This document shows positions 2,845 to 37,582 of a DNA stretch of 37,582 nucleotides, one piece after another. How positions within the stretch are numbered: position 1 is the stretch's first letter; each line of letters starts with the position of its first letter. The position numbers and the translations under genes were made by a program. The DNA is from Gammaproteobacteria bacterium (GTDB lineage Bacteria > Pseudomonadota > Gammaproteobacteria > Chromatiales > Chromatiaceae): positions 1-37,582 of the forward strand of contig WFXD01000111.1 of NCBI GenBank assembly GCA_015490795.1, written 5' to 3'. The notes under the pieces were generated by a model that was not told where the DNA came from, made no database searches, and saw only the letters and a list, made by a program, of their open reading frames with translations.

Positions 2845-3682
2845 GAACCCTTTTCCAGGTGAAAACAACACCGGGCATATATGGGACGACAACATTCGTG
2901 AGTTGGCCAACCCCATTCCACGCTGGTGGATGCTCTCATGGTGGGCCAGCTGTGCCTGGGTGCTGATTTATGTGGTGATCTACCCCTCTCTTCCAATTGG
3001 AGACAAGCCGCCACCCGGCCTGATGGGGTGGACTGCGATTGAAGAGTTCAAGGAAGGGATGGCCGAGGTGGAGGCGATTCGTGCCAAATATGAGGATCAG
3101 ATCAAGGGGATGACAGCGGAACAGATCCTGGCCGACCCTGGTCTCTCTGATTACACCGTTGCCTCTGTGAAGGTGCTTTATGGCGACAACTGCGCTGCAT
3201 GCCATGGCTCCGGCGGTCAGGGTGCCCCGGGGTTTCCTGTAATTGCGGATGACGTCTGGCTCTATGGCGGCTCTACCGAGAAGATTGAAGAGACCATCGC
3301 CAAAGGTCGCCGGGGCATGATGCCTGCACATAACAGCAAACTCTCTGCCGAGCAGATTGATACACTGGCAAACTATGTCGTAGGTCTGAGCGAGGGGAAG
3401 GATGACCCAGCCGGAAAAGCGCTGTTTATGGCCAATGCCTGCTTTGCCTGTCATGGCATGACGGGCACGGGCAATCAGGCGATGGGCGCAGTTAATCTGA
3501 CCGACAGCGTCTGGCGTTTTGCACCAGGTGGTATAGAGAGTGCAAAGCGTACCATTGCGCATGGTGTGAATTTTCCAAGCGACCCGGAAAGTCGTGAAGC
3601 CATAATGCCAGCCTTTGGTGACAAACTGTCTGCTAATGAAATCAAAAAATTAGCAGTGTATGTTTACAGATTGGGTCAATAG
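2834..3682 (+). CDS. ccoP: cbb3 oxidase diheme cytochrome c subunit III (CcoP)
   Basis: Diheme cytochrome c that accepts electrons from soluble or membrane cytochromes and feeds CcoO/CcoN. ATG 2834 is chosen because GGAG lies seven bases upstream; an in-frame ATG at 2819 would add five residues. The 282-residue product has an N-terminal domain with one hydrophobic anchor (about 36-52) and two c-type heme motifs, C120-A-A-C-H124 and C203-F-A-C-H207. Methionines in GMMPAH (about 161-166) and in IMPAFGDKL near the C-terminus are the probable axial ligands. Last structural gene; a hairpin terminator follows 18 bp after the stop. Confidence 0.97.
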   Translation: MADKNPFPGENNTGHIWDDNIRELANPIPRWWMLSWWASCAWVLIYVVIYPSLPIGDKPPPGLMGWTAIEEFKEGMAEVEAIRAKYEDQIKGMTAEQILADPGLSDYTVASVKVLYGDNCAACHGSGGQGAPGFPVIADDVWLYGGSTEKIEETIAKGRRGMMPAHNSKLSAEQIDTLANYVVGLSEGKDDPAGKALFMANACFACHGMTGTGNQAMGAVNLTDSVWRFAPGGIESAKRTIAHGVNFPSDPESREAIMPAFGDKLSANEIKKLAVYVYRLGQ

Positions 3683-3869: not shown

Positions 3870-5294
3870 GTGAGCAAACAGCCCTCCCCATCACACCTTG
3901 CAGCAATTGATGACCTGCTGGAAGAGGCAGAGCAGTGGCATGTCAATGCCGGTGATGAAACTATCCATGCAAAACGGATGGGGGGGAAGTGGCGCACCAT
4001 CAAGTGGCTCGGCAACTCACTCTGGTTGCTGCTGTTCTTTGGGCCTTATCTGCGCTGGAACGGTCGGCAAGCGATCCTTTGGGATATTCCTGACCGCCAG
4101 TTCCACCTCTTTAATGTCACAATCCTTCCCCAGGATCTGTGGATGCTCGCCCTGCTGCTGCTGTTTTTGGCAATACTGCTGTTTGCAGTAACTGCATTTT
4201 CTGGACGGGTATGGTGTGGATTTCTCTGTTTTCAGACTGTGTGGACAGATATCTATACCTTGATAGAGGAGAGGTTCGAAGGCACACCGCAACAACGAAG
4301 AGCATTGGACAAGGCGCCAATGGATCTCAACAAGTTTGGCAAAAAACTTGGCAAACACACACTATGGATGCTGATTGCAATATGGACCGGCATCAGCTTT
4401 GTAGCCTGGTTTACTGACGCCTATGCGTTGTGGGGCAACCTGTTTCAGTTTCAGCTGTCTTCGGCGGCCTGGATTACGATTTTGCTGTTTACCGTATGCA
4501 CCTATCTTTTGGCTGGTTTTATGCGCGAGCAGGTCTGCATGTGGGTCTGTCCCTATGCCCGTATTCAGGGGACGCTGGTAGATGTAACATCCATTATTCC
4601 CACCTATGATTTTCATCGTGGGGAACCGCGCAGCCGCAGGAAAAAGAGCGATGCTGACGGGCAGCAGGCGGGGGACTGTGTGGACTGCAACCAGTGTGTG
4701 GCGGTATGTCCTACCGGCATTGATATTCGCAGAGGGCAACAGGAAGGGTGCATCATGTGTGCTTTGTGCATAGATGCATGTGACATGGTAATGGACAAAG
4801 TAGGGCGGCCTCGTGGCCTGATTCGCTATGAGTCATTGAATGGCCTTGAGGGCAAGGCCTGTCCACCGGTCTACAAACAACCCCGCATTGTTATAACCAG
4901 CCTGATCATGTTTGCAGCGCTACTGGGTATTTTTTATGGCCTCAGCAGCATTGATGCTGTGGATCTAAAGGTACTGCATGCACGGCAACCGCTTTACGTA
5001 CTACAGAGTGATGGCTCTATCCAGAATAAATACACGCTCAAAATTCTGAACAAGCTGGCAGATGATGTGCAGGTAAAAATCAGTGCAACGGGGCCAAAGG
5101 GGCTTAAAATTACAAGTAACCGGCTGCTTGTAGCGCAACATGGCACCGTGACGCCAATAACGACCTATGTGCGTGTTGCCAGAAAAAACCTTACTGTGGA
5201 AACCCAACCCATCATTTTTCATATTGAAACTGTGGACTCAAAGGAGCCGTTTTCCAGCCATCGGGAAAGCGTTTTCATTGGGCCGAAGAGGTGA
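3870..5294 (+). CDS. ccoG: cbb3 oxidase accessory polyferredoxin (CcoG)
   Basis: Membrane-bound iron-sulfur protein required for cbb3 oxidase biogenesis; homologs reduce Cu(II) for the assembly pathway. GTG start at 3870 with AGGA upstream (the overlapping ATG at 3868 is followed at once by a stop). The 474-residue product has about five membrane helices, two CxxxC pairs at the membrane (C116/C120 and C223/C227), then a bacterial ferredoxin domain with two 4Fe-4S motifs: C270-C273-C276-C280 and C294-C297-C300-C304. A C-terminal immunoglobulin-like domain (about 370-470) completes the family layout. First gene of the assembly cluster; its stop overlaps the GTG at 5291 just before ccoH. Confidence 0.95.
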   Translation: MSKQPSPSHLAAIDDLLEEAEQWHVNAGDETIHAKRMGGKWRTIKWLGNSLWLLLFFGPYLRWNGRQAILWDIPDRQFHLFNVTILPQDLWMLALLLLFLAILLFAVTAFSGRVWCGFLCFQTVWTDIYTLIEERFEGTPQQRRALDKAPMDLNKFGKKLGKHTLWMLIAIWTGISFVAWFTDAYALWGNLFQFQLSSAAWITILLFTVCTYLLAGFMREQVCMWVCPYARIQGTLVDVTSIIPTYDFHRGEPRSRRKKSDADGQQAGDCVDCNQCVAVCPTGIDIRRGQQEGCIMCALCIDACDMVMDKVGRPRGLIRYESLNGLEGKACPPVYKQPRIVITSLIMFAALLGIFYGLSSIDAVDLKVLHARQPLYVLQSDGSIQNKYTLKILNKLADDVQVKISATGPKGLKITSNRLLVAQHGTVTPITTYVRVARKNLTVETQPIIFHIETVDSKEPFSSHRESVFIGPKR

Positions 5295-33720: not shown

Positions 33721-35055
33721 ATGGCCTTTACCCCGGCCCATCTCCTTCAAATCCTGAATGAACTGCCACCCCCCCGGCGCTATCTGATTGCCCTTAGCGG
33801 CGGCTGCGACTCTATAGTGCTGCTGCACGCCATGGCGGCGATACGGGATGAACTGCTCCCCGCAGAGCTGGTTGCTGTGCATATCAACCACGGGCTACAG
33901 CCTGATGCACCCGCCTGGGCCGCACACTGTGCACAGGTCTCCCGGCAGCTTGGCATTGAATTGATCCAGATAGCGCTGGATCTTCAAGTTGCCAAAGGTG
34001 AAAGCCTGGAAGCAGCGGCCCGTGATGCGCGTTACAGAGCCATCAAGGCAGAGACAGCAGTGGGCGATATGCTGCTCACTGCACAACATCAGGATGACCA
34101 GGCCGAGACGCTCCTGCTGCAACTATTGCGCGGCAGTGGCCCCGGCGGGTTGGCATCCATGCCTCAATGCACCGCTTTTGGGGCGGGTTTTCACGCACGC
34201 CCGCTGTTGGTTTTTACCCGCAAGCAACTGCACCAGTATGCTGTTGGGCAGGGGCTGCTCTGGATTGAAGACCGCAGTAACCAGGATCTGCGTTTTGACC
34301 GGAATTTTCTAAGACAAGAGATTATGCCACTGCTTGCCCAACGCTGGCCTGCCATCTCTCAAACCCTGGCCCGCAGTGCGCGACACTGTGCTGAAGCACA
34401 GCAACTGATTGATAATCTGATCATTGATGAGATCAAAAAGGTAGAGCAGCCAGAGGGGAGGCTCTCGGTTCAGGGACTAACAGCACTGCCTGCACCCCAA
34501 TGCCGTGCAGTATTAAGGGCCTGGATTCAGAGGGAGGGATTCCAGCTGCCGGATACACGGCATCTGGATCGCATTCAGAAAGAGGTGCTGCAAGCGGCAC
34601 ATGACCGTAACCCCCTGGTTGGCTGGGCAGGCTGTGAACTACGGCGCTATCGTGAGCAGCTGTTTCTAATGTCTCCATTAACACCGCATGATCATGATAC
34701 TGTTCTGAGTTGGGATGGAGAGACACCTTTGCAGCTGCCTGCCAATCTGGGCCTTCTTACAACCGGGAGAGGAGACCACGGAGTTGACCCGGCAAAATGG
34801 CAAAATGGCAACATTGAGATCCGTTTTCGCCAGGGGGGGGAGCGCTGCCAGCTGGCCGGGCGAAACCACACCCACAGTTTGAAAAAGCTCCTCCAGGGGA
34901 GAGGTGTGCCCCCGTGGGAGAGGAGTCGAATACCACTTGTTTTTATCGACAACCAACTGGCTGCCGTTGCAGACCTCTGGGTGTGTGAACCATTTGCAGC
35001 CCAAAACAACCAGACTGGAATAATAATCTTCAAAACATTGAACAATCCACAATAA
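33721..35055 (+). CDS. tilS: tRNA(Ile)-lysidine synthetase
   Basis: Converts C34 of the tRNA-Ile(CAU) anticodon to lysidine so that AUA is read as isoleucine. The 444-residue product has the PP-loop ATP motif S26-G-G-C-D-S31, the IDNLIIDE substrate-binding middle domain, and the C-terminal domain with RQGGERCQLAGRNHTHSLKK and GVPPWERSRIPLVF. The end of the gene carries the -35 of the next gene's promoter (35038-35043). It is the last gene of the housekeeping block. Confidence 0.96.
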   Translation: MAFTPAHLLQILNELPPPRRYLIALSGGCDSIVLLHAMAAIRDELLPAELVAVHINHGLQPDAPAWAAHCAQVSRQLGIELIQIALDLQVAKGESLEAAARDARYRAIKAETAVGDMLLTAQHQDDQAETLLLQLLRGSGPGGLASMPQCTAFGAGFHARPLLVFTRKQLHQYAVGQGLLWIEDRSNQDLRFDRNFLRQEIMPLLAQRWPAISQTLARSARHCAEAQQLIDNLIIDEIKKVEQPEGRLSVQGLTALPAPQCRAVLRAWIQREGFQLPDTRHLDRIQKEVLQAAHDRNPLVGWAGCELRRYREQLFLMSPLTPHDHDTVLSWDGETPLQLPANLGLLTTGRGDHGVDPAKWQNGNIEIRFRQGGERCQLAGRNHTHSLKKLLQGRGVPPWERSRIPLVFIDNQLAAVADLWVCEPFAAQNNQTGIIIFKTLNNPQ

Positions 35056-35081
35056 GCCCCTATAGTTCTGAAAAACAGAAC
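35038..35081 (+). promoter_or_regulatory. Promoter with 17-bp operator for the wHTH regulator gene
   Basis: TTGAAC (35038-35043), 17-base spacer, TATAGT (35061-35066; 5 of 6 to consensus). Transcription would start near 35073, inside the dyad GTTCTG-AAAAA-CAGAAC (35065-35081). GGGAG (35087-35091) then serves the TTG start at 35098. A perfect inverted repeat covering the start point is the classical layout of a repressor operator, and the adjacent gene encodes a winged-helix protein, so autorepression is the simplest reading. Confidence 0.65.
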
Positions 35082-35097: not shown

Positions 35098-35649
35098 TTG
35101 AATAGCCTTTTTGGTGGGTTAATCACATCCAAAACACGCATTCGGATATTGATGCGTCTCTTCCTTAACCCCAAGCAACATGCCTACCTGCGGGAGTTGG
35201 CGGGTGAGTTTAATGTCTCTCCAAGCCAAGTACGCGAAGAGCTGCAACATCTAAACAGCGCCGGGTTGCTGGAGTGTGAAAAGTCAGGTCGCCAAATCAA
35301 CTATCGGGCAAATAAAGAGCATCCACTATTCCCTGAACTGCACTCTATGGTTCAAAAGGCGCTGGGCATGGATCGCATCCTTGATAGCATCGTAGAGCGG
35401 CTGGGGAACCTGGAAGAGGCCTGGTTGATTGATGACTATGCGGAAGGAAAGGATGCAGGGCTGATTGATCTTGTATTTGTAGGAGATATTAATCAGGAAA
35501 ATCTTAGTGATCTGGTCATGAAAACTGAGCAATACATTGGCCGTAAAATTCGCACACTGACTCTCCGCTCAGATGAGCAACAAGCGCTTAACTCCCTGTT
35601 GGCCAATAGACCCCAGCTTTTATTATGGCAGCGAAAGCATGGGCAATAA
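35098..35649 (+). CDS. ArsR-like winged-helix regulator with degenerate nucleotidyltransferase domain
   Basis: TTG start with GGGAG six bases upstream; 183 residues. Residues 1-75 form a winged helix (SKTRIRILMRLFLNP, then REELQHLNSAGLLECEKSGR as recognition helix and wing). Residues 105-175 resemble a minimal nucleotidyltransferase (MNT) fold: the GSxAxG loop reads DDYAEG and only one aspartate of the usual DxD remains (IDLVFVG), so catalysis is unlikely. Proteins of this two-domain kind are, to my knowledge, commonly encoded beside polysaccharide clusters and annotated only as ArsR-family regulators. Its neighbour is a Wzx-type flippase. Ligand and target are unknown. Confidence 0.75.
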   Translation: MNSLFGGLITSKTRIRILMRLFLNPKQHAYLRELAGEFNVSPSQVREELQHLNSAGLLECEKSGRQINYRANKEHPLFPELHSMVQKALGMDRILDSIVERLGNLEEAWLIDDYAEGKDAGLIDLVFVGDINQENLSDLVMKTEQYIGRKIRTLTLRSDEQQALNSLLANRPQLLLWQRKHGQ

Positions 35650-35676: not shown

Positions 35677-36975
35677 ATGAGCTTTTTTGATCTGCCCCGC
35701 CTGAGTAAATATTATTCAAATACCTCCTGGTTGGTATTTGAACGCATATTGCGCATGGTGATTGCGTTATTTATTGGCATTTATGTGGCTCGATATTTAG
35801 GCGCCGAGCGCTATGGTTTATTGAGTTATGCCAACAGCTTTGTGGGGCTGTTTATTGCGTTAAGCACATTAGGGCTGGATGCCATTGTGGTGCGTGAACT
35901 GGTTAAAAATACAGAACGGCGCAATGAGCTATTGGGCACGGCTTTTGGCCTGAAAATAATGGGTGTCATTCTAATGTGGCTGGCTATTTTAGTTGCTGTC
36001 TACTTAACTGATAGTGATGCTCAAGCAAATACTTTTATTGCCATTATTGCTTTCGGCGTAATCTTTCAAGCATTCAATGTTATTGATTTTAACTATCAGG
36101 CGGAAGTGAAATCCAAATATGTGGTTCATGCTCAACTGGCTCAACTTGTCATCTCATCTATTTGCAAGTTACTTTTGGTTTTCTATCAAGCTCCACTGAT
36201 ATGGTTTGCATGGATTTATAGCTTAGATGCAGCAGTGCTGGCGCTTGGCTTGGCCATCATGTATTTGCGGTATACAGGGAAAATCATTGTCTGGCGCTTG
36301 AAATGGAGCGTGGTAAAAGAGCTGTTGAGTAATAGTTGGCTTCTATTGCTTTATGCATATTTTGTTACTATTAACATGAATATTGATATAGTAATGGTTA
36401 AGCATATACTTGGTAATGAGAGCGCAGGTCACTACTCCGTTGCCATGACCTTGTCTGCAGTTTGGTATTTTTTGCCCGTTGTAATTGGGTCAACATTCTT
36501 CCCATATATCATAAGCAGAAAGAGCGATCCTAACTATAAAAAACGGGTCTCTTCCCTATTTGCTTTATTAACATTGATTGCACTATTAGGAGCGATTGTT
36601 GTATCGAGTCTGAGCTACTGGATAGTGACCATGCTATATGGATATGAATATGCAGAGGCTGCAAATATACTCTCTATTCATATATGGACAGGGGTTTTTG
36701 TATTCCATGTATCTATTAGATCGAGAATGTTGATATCTGATAATCTGCACCACTTTTCGATGTTGTTTATGTTATTTGGCGTCATTGTGAATATGATAGG
36801 TAACTACATATTAATACCACTATATGGTGGGAGTGGAGCCGCATACGCTTCATTAATTTCCTGGGCAGGTAATGTGCTTGTTTTTCCGTTGCTGAATAAA
36901 AATACACGCTACTTTGTTAAGTTGTTTTTTACCTCTCCAAATAAACTGTTTCAAAGCAAAAGGCATATCAGGTAA
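35677..36975 (+). CDS. Wzx-type polysaccharide flippase (MOP superfamily)
   Basis: The 432-residue product is almost wholly hydrophobic with about 12 predicted helices and the N-terminal pattern of O-antigen/teichoic-acid flippases (SWLVFERILRMVIALFIGIYVARYLGAERYGLLSYA). It would move undecaprenyl-linked oligosaccharides to the periplasmic face. ATG 35677 lies 27 bases after the regulator stop, so both may share a transcript. From about 35660 the DNA becomes clearly more AT-rich with different codon use, a common sign of an exchanged surface-glycan locus. Its stop overlaps the next start (TAATG). Confidence 0.88.
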   Translation: MSFFDLPRLSKYYSNTSWLVFERILRMVIALFIGIYVARYLGAERYGLLSYANSFVGLFIALSTLGLDAIVVRELVKNTERRNELLGTAFGLKIMGVILMWLAILVAVYLTDSDAQANTFIAIIAFGVIFQAFNVIDFNYQAEVKSKYVVHAQLAQLVISSICKLLLVFYQAPLIWFAWIYSLDAAVLALGLAIMYLRYTGKIIVWRLKWSVVKELLSNSWLLLLYAYFVTINMNIDIVMVKHILGNESAGHYSVAMTLSAVWYFLPVVIGSTFFPYIISRKSDPNYKKRVSSLFALLTLIALLGAIVVSSLSYWIVTMLYGYEYAEAANILSIHIWTGVFVFHVSIRSRMLISDNLHHFSMLFMLFGVIVNMIGNYILIPLYGGSGAAYASLISWAGNVLVFPLLNKNTRYFVKLFFTSPNKLFQSKRHIR

Positions 36976-37582
36976 TGCTTAATAAAAGCAAGTTATCATT
37001 GGTTGATGACGTTGGCGACCTGTTTATTGGGAATAATAAAATATACAGGGGCATACACTCACAATATAAAAGCAGGGTAATAAATATACTTGATTGTGGT
37101 TTAATTGATAAGCTGGTTAATGAAGGACTGTTTCCTGAAACAATCATATCAAGCCAGGATATAGCAGGTTATGAACTGGTTCTAGAGCATAGAAAAATTG
37201 ACTATGTAACCTATCCATTTGAATGGTCACCAGAGATGTTGCGTGATGCAGGGTTAACTATTCTCAAGGTTAATGAAATATGCAATAGATATGGCTATGA
37301 ATTAAAGGATGCCCACCCATTCAATCTGATCTTTGATCGCAATAAATGCTTGTTTGTTGATTTTGGCAGCTTTAAAGAAAAAACGACAGCAAATGATGGA
37401 TGTTATTGTGCTGAGGAATTTTTAAGATCATATTATTATCCACTATATTTTTATTCAACAGGTGCAAAATACCTCTTTGCCACTTCGTTATTAAAAGCCG
37501 GTGGCATGATACCGCATATTGATTATCTTTTATTTAAAAACCCATTGCTTCGCCTGCTGCCGGAAAAGATAGTAGAGAGATT
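36975..37582 (+). CDS. Partial: kinase-like N-terminal region, probably of a SAM-methyltransferase-type protein
   Basis: Open frame from ATG 36975 to the window end without a stop (202 codons visible). The ATG shares one base with the flippase stop. The segment YPFEWSPEMLRDAGL (about 80-94) followed by L-K-D112-A-H-P-F-N117 and V-D129-F-G-S resembles the kinase catalytic loop (D to N spacing of five, as in HRDxxxxN) and DFG motif (17 residues on). I recognise this N-terminal layout from proteins annotated as class I SAM-dependent methyltransferases in glycan or nodulation-type loci; the methyltransferase part would lie beyond the window. AT-rich like the flippase. Confidence 0.6.
   Translation, partial: MLNKSKLSLVDDVGDLFIGNNKIYRGIHSQYKSRVINILDCGLIDKLVNEGLFPETIISSQDIAGYELVLEHRKIDYVTYPFEWSPEMLRDAGLTILKVNEICNRYGYELKDAHPFNLIFDRNKCLFVDFGSFKEKTTANDGCYCAEEFLRSYYYPLYFYSTGAKYLFATSLLKAGGMIPHIDYLLFKNPLLRLLPEKIVER

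Follow-up and report, generated by a model that had tools for sequence, protein, structure and literature searches.

A winged-helix protein with a degenerate, probably inactive nucleotidyltransferase domain, a predicted local autorepressor of likely antitoxin origin, precedes surface-polysaccharide genes

The window analysed here is the whole stretch of 37,582 nucleotides. Towards its right-hand end, a small regulator gene lies between tilS and a polysaccharide flippase gene, as follows.

33721 to 35055, plus strand: tilS (Pfam ATP_bind_3, TilS and TilS_C), directly upstream of the regulator gene and left border of the locus.
35098 to 35649, plus strand: regulator gene with a TTG start, 183 aa, encoding a winged helix and a degenerate minimal nucleotidyltransferase (MNT) domain.
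35677 to 36975, plus strand: Wzx-type polysaccharide flippase gene (Pfam Polysacc_synt, 9.8e-23).
36975 to 37580, plus strand: second ORF past the regulator, its start overlaps the 3' end of the flippase gene, and the frame is still open where the window ends.

Gaps of 42 nt and 27 nt separate the regulator ORF from tilS and from the flippase gene, respectively, all three being on the same strand. Terminator-like sites on the plus strand fall within the regulator gene (two) and within the flippase gene (one), for 0.9 expected by chance. The ORF at 36975-37580 (202 aa) gave no Pfam or NCBIfam match; by eye only, its segment HPFNLIFD...FVDFGS looks kinase-like.

The 183-aa protein belongs to a strongly conserved family. 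Relatives are encoded in 111 of the 165 stretches scanned, and because the best 80 of these 111 are 54-79% identical to it, the ORF is not a chance reading frame. Most of the relatives among the matches listed belong, to judge from their records, to Gammaproteobacteria and Desulfobacterota. Among whole genomes, the close family has a patchy distribution: it is present in 7 of the 38 searched together with the own genome (E < 1e-63) and, in the phylum of Desulfoluna, in 12 of 247, the centre genome counted in (E < 1e-40). One genome (G375) carries the close family twice. The degenerate family was sampled as 84 distinct loci, and four more additions bring it to 88 members.

Neighbouring ORFs were called mechanically, and some may be spurious. 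In 73 of 78 loci, the ORF that follows shares the strand of the regulator, 42 of these 73 starting within 100 nt (median 58 nt); the preceding ORF shares it in 51/75. The Pfam families most often found in the next gene are ABC2_membrane (12 of 78), GDP_Man_Dehyd (11) and Polysacc_synt (10), and those in the second gene are ABC_tran (11 of 67) and Wzt_C (10). Glycosyltransferases are also found before the regulator (Glycos_transf_2, 11/75), so that the surroundings are often glycan-rich on both sides and some copies may sit inside a cluster rather than at its head. At the loci of four near relatives (L082, L023, L085 and L003), the preceding tilS is 72-86% identical to that of the window, and the next gene is only 11-15% identical to the flippase; at L002, the next gene is 40% identical to the flippase and the preceding ORF is not tilS. 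A preliminary description of this DNA had set a DNA-binding domain joined to a probably dead MNT domain before polysaccharide genes, which it would probably regulate, and the recurrence of these neighbours across the family is in accordance with that proposal.

Within the regulator, two domains and two shorter elements were delimited.

35098 to 35361, plus strand: ArsR-like winged-helix domain, residues 1-88 (structure model and structure matches).
35221 to 35259, plus strand: predicted recognition helix, residues 42-54 (helix in the model).
35365 to 35646, plus strand: degenerate MNT domain, residues 90-183 (model, structure search and profile comparison).
35431 to 35472, plus strand: DDYAEGKDAGLIDL, residues 112-125, where the catalytic GS...DxD would be (alignments).

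The full-length structure model has a mean pLDDT of 89, and in the structure search residues 1-98 resemble ArsR-type repressors with Z values of 10-12, up to 12.1. The NCBIfam model HTH_metalloreg (NF033788) matches at 1.5e-10 with 40.7 bits, which is below its cut-off of 55. A Cys-based metal site is a feature of the ArsR/SmtB family. The whole translated regulator contains one Cys and hence no such site. Sensing of a metal or of sulfide through the ArsR-like domain was considered and set aside, because the protein has this single Cys and an additional conserved domain.

A predicted promoter and a predicted operator lie directly before the regulator gene.

35038 to 35066, plus strand: predicted sigma-70 promoter, TTGAAC - 17 - TATAGT (consensus scan).
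35065 to 35081, no strand assigned: predicted operator palindrome GTTCTGAAAAACAGAAC (exact match, 17 bp).

The predicted -35 box falls within the 3' end of tilS, and the palindrome shares its first two bases with the 3' end of the predicted -10 box and overlaps the predicted transcript start. The consensus scan returned 4 promoter-like sites in 901 bases, versus 1.5 expected. Two types of predicted operator precede the regulator across the family, GTTCT-N7-AGAAC in 24 loci and GAGTA-N7-TACTC in 52 loci. At 0-1 mismatch, an operator is found in the full 220 nt upstream in 76 of the 84 loci (66 exact, 10 with one mismatch), and in the nearest 120 nt in 75/84, versus 10 of 1680 shuffled upstream sequences. 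Palindromes with five-base arms and a seven-base spacer occur in 69/84 loci for 6.0 expected; spacers of 3, 5, 9 and 11 are over-represented as well, partly because longer arms nest. Moreover, a TTGACA-like box at 0-1 mismatch stands 5' of the operator in 60 of the 76 loci, whereas base shuffles give on average 9.4/84 over a comparable stretch.

These 76 loci together span 711 kb, in which only one other exact site of the own type occurs, in L011. In the own genome, GTTCT-N7-AGAAC occurs exactly three times, against once for the reversed-pattern control; the other two exact sites both lie inside long ORFs, and a wider regulon was rejected on this ground. In 13 other genomes, GAGTA-N7-TACTC did not exceed its reversed-pattern control, seven of them (G001, G002, G003, G005, G017, G039 and G044) carrying the GTTCT type instead of the GAGTA type tested. 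In the window, 15 operator-like sites are found at up to two mismatches versus 10 expected, so that only the exact site carries weight. A predicted operator that is near-unique at each locus is what a dedicated, local autoregulator would show, and local autorepression is the most likely role of the protein. An activator or anti-silencer of the polysaccharide operon could stand ahead of it just as well, but the window palindrome covers the -10 box and the predicted start, and proteins bound over these elements usually block RNA polymerase, so we hold activation to be very unlikely.

An operator at 0-1 mismatch is missing in 8 of the 84 loci. Five of these (L016, L018, L029, L060 and L072) have variant palindromes and L079 has a different one; the upstream region of L009 is damaged, and L027 has no visible operator. 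In L009, a truncated and internally deleted second copy of the regulator appears by eye to precede the intact one directly, about 150 nt before position 2591, at the place expected for the operator. In L015, a TTCAACC-type repeat tract upstream of position 4177 stands between the operator-like sequence and the start codon, which are well over 100 nt apart.

Pfam by itself detected no MNT domain in the window protein; the intact relatives, PADLOC and structure were needed for this assignment. The C-terminal domain was modelled and searched separately, the VIA-align rows of the whole model being filled by the winged helix. Modelled alone, it reaches a pLDDT of 87, and its best matches are nucleotidyltransferases (2rff, E 1.7e-4), with top rows that are mutually consistent. 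Its Z values are 6.8 against HI0073 and 6.5 against the MntA antitoxin chains 6m6u_F and 7bxo_A, all middling on the tool's own scale. An hhalign comparison of the C-terminal profile with five intact relatives gave a probability of 94 and an E value of 1e-7, and the MNT assignment is strengthened because this profile link is independent of the middling structure Z values. Models, structure matches and hhalign thus bear out the earlier assignment of 35098-35649 to a winged helix fused to a nucleotidyltransferase fold, the C-terminal model resembling 2rff and MntA and not an unrelated fold.

In the hhalign comparison, DDYAEGKDAG--LIDL is paired with GSTAKHRDHSRSDVDL. By this pairing, GS has become DD, two loop residues have been lost, the first Asp has become Leu and the second Asp is kept. 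Among the 88 members, the GS pair is replaced by DD in 85 and by GD in 3, and none retains GS, so the loss of the GS loop claimed in the preliminary description extends to the whole family sample. The same description had both paired aspartates lost, which is correct for the first, replaced by Leu, Ile or Val across the alignments of the degenerate family, but not for the second, whose counterpart D124 is invariant in an alignment of 82 rows. In MntA, the GS and first-Asp residues touch, according to PMC7641770, the phosphates and the magnesium of ATP. Because these contact residues are replaced, loss of catalysis is likely; the window protein is likely to be catalytically dead, and canonical Mg-NTP binding by it is unlikely.

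The degenerate domain is nevertheless not decaying. In the alignment of 82 rows (one of them a duplicate), the strictest 12-residue conservation begins at residue 113, i.e. in the former active-site loop, and D113, Y114, A115, G117, D119, G121 and D124 are invariant in all rows. Column identity averages 0.75 over residues 1-88, 0.82 over residues 89-156 and 0.49 over residues 157-183, this tail being far more variable with the exception of W177. For 16 close pairs, dN/dS of the MNT part (residues 89-156) ranges from 0.008 to 0.29; the 15 pairs that yielded a value have a median of about 0.04, compared with about 0.07 in the winged helix, for which 14 pairs did so. Several of the dS values are above 1 and therefore rough. 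The MNT domain is under strong purifying selection. The pocket motif being the most conserved stretch of the protein, the former pocket is likely to have some ligand or partner.

That pocket may belong to a ligand-gated sensor, in which the dead MNT domain would bind a nucleotide, an NDP-sugar or a second messenger and thereby set the affinity for DNA. The seven invariant loop residues, the strict stretch from residue 113 and the low dN/dS (about 0.04) speak for such a role, as a purely structural domain need not hold a loop so strictly. However, the residues corresponding to the MntA phosphate and metal contacts described in PMC7641770 are replaced, with acids now at the phosphate places, and the diversity of the next genes, whose commonest Pfam family reaches 12/78, stands against one cassette-specific sugar. 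Genes that are exchanged behind a constant regulator and promoter likewise argue against the sensing of one cassette-specific sugar nucleotide. Thus, the nucleotide or NDP-sugar sensing put forward in the preliminary description is not upheld as worded, with the phosphate-holding residues and one metal Asp replaced and the downstream genes variable; sensing in some form remains in the account, given that no other stretch is as conserved as the pocket motif and that purifying selection on the domain is strong. We regard the ligand-gated sensor as a tentative reading with somewhat less than an even chance, and one that refines, rather than opposes, the best explanation, that of a local autorepressor.

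ArsR-like winged helices bind DNA as dimers, and the MNT remnant might serve for dimerisation or as a scaffold only. The protein would then repress its own promoter unconditionally and keep the operon at a low, steady level. Negative autoregulation would explain the single operator, and PMC4621449 reports an autoregulating MNT antitoxin in Shewanella. Nevertheless, the tightest conservation lies in the former active-site loop, which would not be an obvious dimer surface, and this purely structural role seems less likely than not.

Relatives with intact GS and DxD are common. A query with L088 matched 39 of 229 genomes of the class, among them the own genome with its degenerate copy and a few more with weak matches of degenerate-like type; in the phylum of Desulfoluna, 31 of 247 genomes matched (E < 1e-30). 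At most fetched intact loci, the relative is followed by an overlapping or adjacent gene of ~140 aa, i.e. in antitoxin-first order. A profile of this HEPN-like partner matches 31/34 and 26/30 intact loci, having been built from 15 of those 31 partner-bearing loci. The same profile, made for this one type of partner, matches none of the 84 degenerate loci, none of the four more and nothing in the own genome, whereas as a positive control it finds its match in 4/4 genomes with intact loci.

In PADLOC, whose models were run on five proteins, the two members of the intact pair are called PDC-M05A and PDC-M05B. The PDC-M05A model also recognises the window protein (9.8e-29), aligning residues 8-162 with profile positions 9-167 of 201. 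The preliminary description knew of no described function for this architecture, which is only partly right, as a winged-helix nucleotidyltransferase is modelled in PADLOC as PDC-M05A. By sequence, the HEPN identity of the partner is weak (Pfam HEPN at 0.017 for one of nine; 2hsb at 0.042). In a 2026 paper (PMC12988326), PDC-M05 is described as a nucleotidyltransferase with a HEPN-domain protein, toxin-antitoxin-like and with an antiviral role that is unconfirmed. The partner is called HEPN on the basis of the weak sequence matches, the PADLOC model PDC-M05B and this description.

The 88 degenerate members group as one clade (aLRT 100) on a stem of 1.87 when 168 proteins are placed in a maximum-likelihood tree, and in a FastTree of 150 proteins (GS in 62, DD in 85, GD in 3) the degenerate clade has a support of 1.0. 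Read on these unrooted trees, the nearest intact relative is L144 (aLRT 64.7 by maximum likelihood, 0.78 in FastTree), a weak placement of a single sequence at the end of the long stem (1.87). L144 has intact GS and DxD and a HEPN-like gene, and it carries GTTCTTTAATTTAGTAC just before its start, one mismatch from the operator of the degenerate family. By eye, the surroundings of L144 resemble a toxin-antitoxin island, with lookalikes of HipB, the HipA N-terminus, a second small nucleotidyltransferase and a HigB-like toxin at 304-1089, 963-1244 and 3075-3407. The 17-mer GTTCATAAAATATGAAC is the same in the intact L090 and L110 and in the degenerate L016 and L018, and many intact relatives have promoter palindromes of their own, in a tally made without a shuffle comparison. 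The promoters of three intact relatives (L099, L105 and L118) hold perfect palindromes with arms of 17-24 bases and TATA in the centre, far longer than the other operators.

SO_3165, an MNT antitoxin of Shewanella, is reported to bind its own promoter and to repress it (PMC4621449). Considering this autorepression together with the palindromes of the intact relatives and the shared operators, autoregulation looks ancestral, and the losses of catalysis and of the partner look derived; the direction of change is inferred from the intact motif, which is the common state of MNT enzymes. We consider it highly probable, from these comparisons, that the regulator descends from a HEPN-MNT antitoxin. 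Such kinship might also mean that the protein is still an antitoxin, binding a distant HEPN protein without modifying it in a polysaccharide setting that is incidental. However, the partner-profile search found no intact-type partner gene in the own genome or in the 84 degenerate loci, and polysaccharide genes recur downstream; such a residual antitoxin role is highly improbable.

The reading that we prefer as a whole, and judge to be probable, is that of an antitoxin-derived, partner-free and catalytically dead local autorepressor before surface-polysaccharide genes. It would originate from the winged-helix plus MNT antitoxin of a HEPN-MNT toxin-antitoxin module. A dimer would occupy the 17-bp palindrome over the -10 box and the transcript start, and would block the promoter of its own gene and of the polysaccharide genes behind it, presumably co-transcribed, so that the operon would be kept low. 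The MNT domain would no longer transfer nucleotides, and the HEPN partner would have been lost. The conserved pocket could be an effector site, a partner site or part of an interface, and its occupancy would release the repressor. Of this account, computation shows the domains, the degenerate motif, the palindrome with its position, the order of the genes, the relationship to intact winged-helix MNT proteins and the lack of their HEPN-like neighbour, whereas binding to DNA, dimer formation, repression, the loss of catalysis, co-transcription and an effector are inferred. Two elements go beyond the preliminary description: the conserved predicted operator and a probable descent from a HEPN-MNT antitoxin.

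The regulator can be set beside several known systems. With the PADLOC candidate system PDC-M05 it has in common the domain order and a PDC-M05A match over most of its length, and promoter palindromes are likewise seen in many intact relatives; it differs from PDC-M05A by the loss of GS and of the first Asp, by having no PDC-M05B-like neighbour and by preceding polysaccharide genes. ArsR/SmtB repressors bind operators over promoters and autorepress. The window protein shares the winged-helix fold with members such as SqrR, HlyU, CzrA and SmtB (Z up to 12.1), but has an additional MNT domain, a single Cys and an HTH_metalloreg score below the cut-off. To MntA of the HEPN-MNT (type VII) systems it is linked by the MNT fold, and the antitoxin-first gene order of type VII is also that of the intact relatives; however, MntA AMPylates its toxin and retains GSx10DxD, whereas the window protein has neither this motif nor such a HEPN gene adjoining. 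The promoter-binding autoregulation of the type VII protein SO_3165 (PMC4621449) is as proposed here, but SO_3165 has, according to the same paper, no predicted DNA-binding domain, whereas the window protein has a winged helix. In the type IV system AbiEi/AbiEii, which was also considered, the nucleotidyltransferase AbiEii is a separate partner. Finally, the bifunctional VapB14 of Sulfolobus, acting in biofilm dispersal, is likewise an antitoxin that regulates a surface trait (PMC10127717), but it belongs to another toxin-antitoxin family and retains its toxin partner.

All parts of the regulator are thus of known kinds, i.e. an ArsR-like winged helix, an MNT fold and antitoxin autoregulation. 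In the openly licensed literature of PubMed Central, we found no paper on a dead winged-helix MNT protein at polysaccharide loci, nor one on this regulator of polysaccharide genes in Sedimenticola-like Gammaproteobacteria or sulfate reducers. What appears to be new is a probably catalytically dead, partner-free antitoxin relative fixed before polysaccharide genes in two bacterial groups. It would tie toxin-antitoxin evolution to the control of surface glycans by a testable path, from intact pairs with palindromes, through a form like the weakly placed L144, to a clade that is without motif and partner and has kept the operator. It also yields a predicted 17-bp operator and promoter at the polysaccharide genes of Sedimenticola-like Gammaproteobacteria and of many sulfate reducers. 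A bolder and decidedly unlikely version is that a defence-type antitoxin has become a pseudoenzyme sensor, whose re-tooled MNT pocket responds to a signal from the cell or induced by a phage and thereby releases the promoter of the variable surface-polysaccharide cassette. If this were true, a part once used for growth arrest would no longer stop the cell but would switch its surface, perhaps including phage receptors, and the regulator, promoter and operator would stay constant at the border as the cassette behind them is swapped.

Within the family of the proposed autorepressor, the start of the recognition helix (residues 41-44) differs by operator type. It reads SPSQ or SPSH in 18 of the 24 GTTCT loci, and STNS, STNA, STNL, SSNS or SSNA in all 52 GAGTA loci. 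The GAGTA loci group in a single clade that contains no GTTCT locus (55 tips, support 93); with L029, L060 and L128 included, it comprises 58 tips (support 99.6). Because all GAGTA loci are in this clade, their covariation with the helix amounts to about a single event and is weaker than the counts suggest. In the two Desulfoluna loci L029 and L060, the palindrome is mixed, with a GTTCA arm and a TACTC arm, as if intermediate between the two types.
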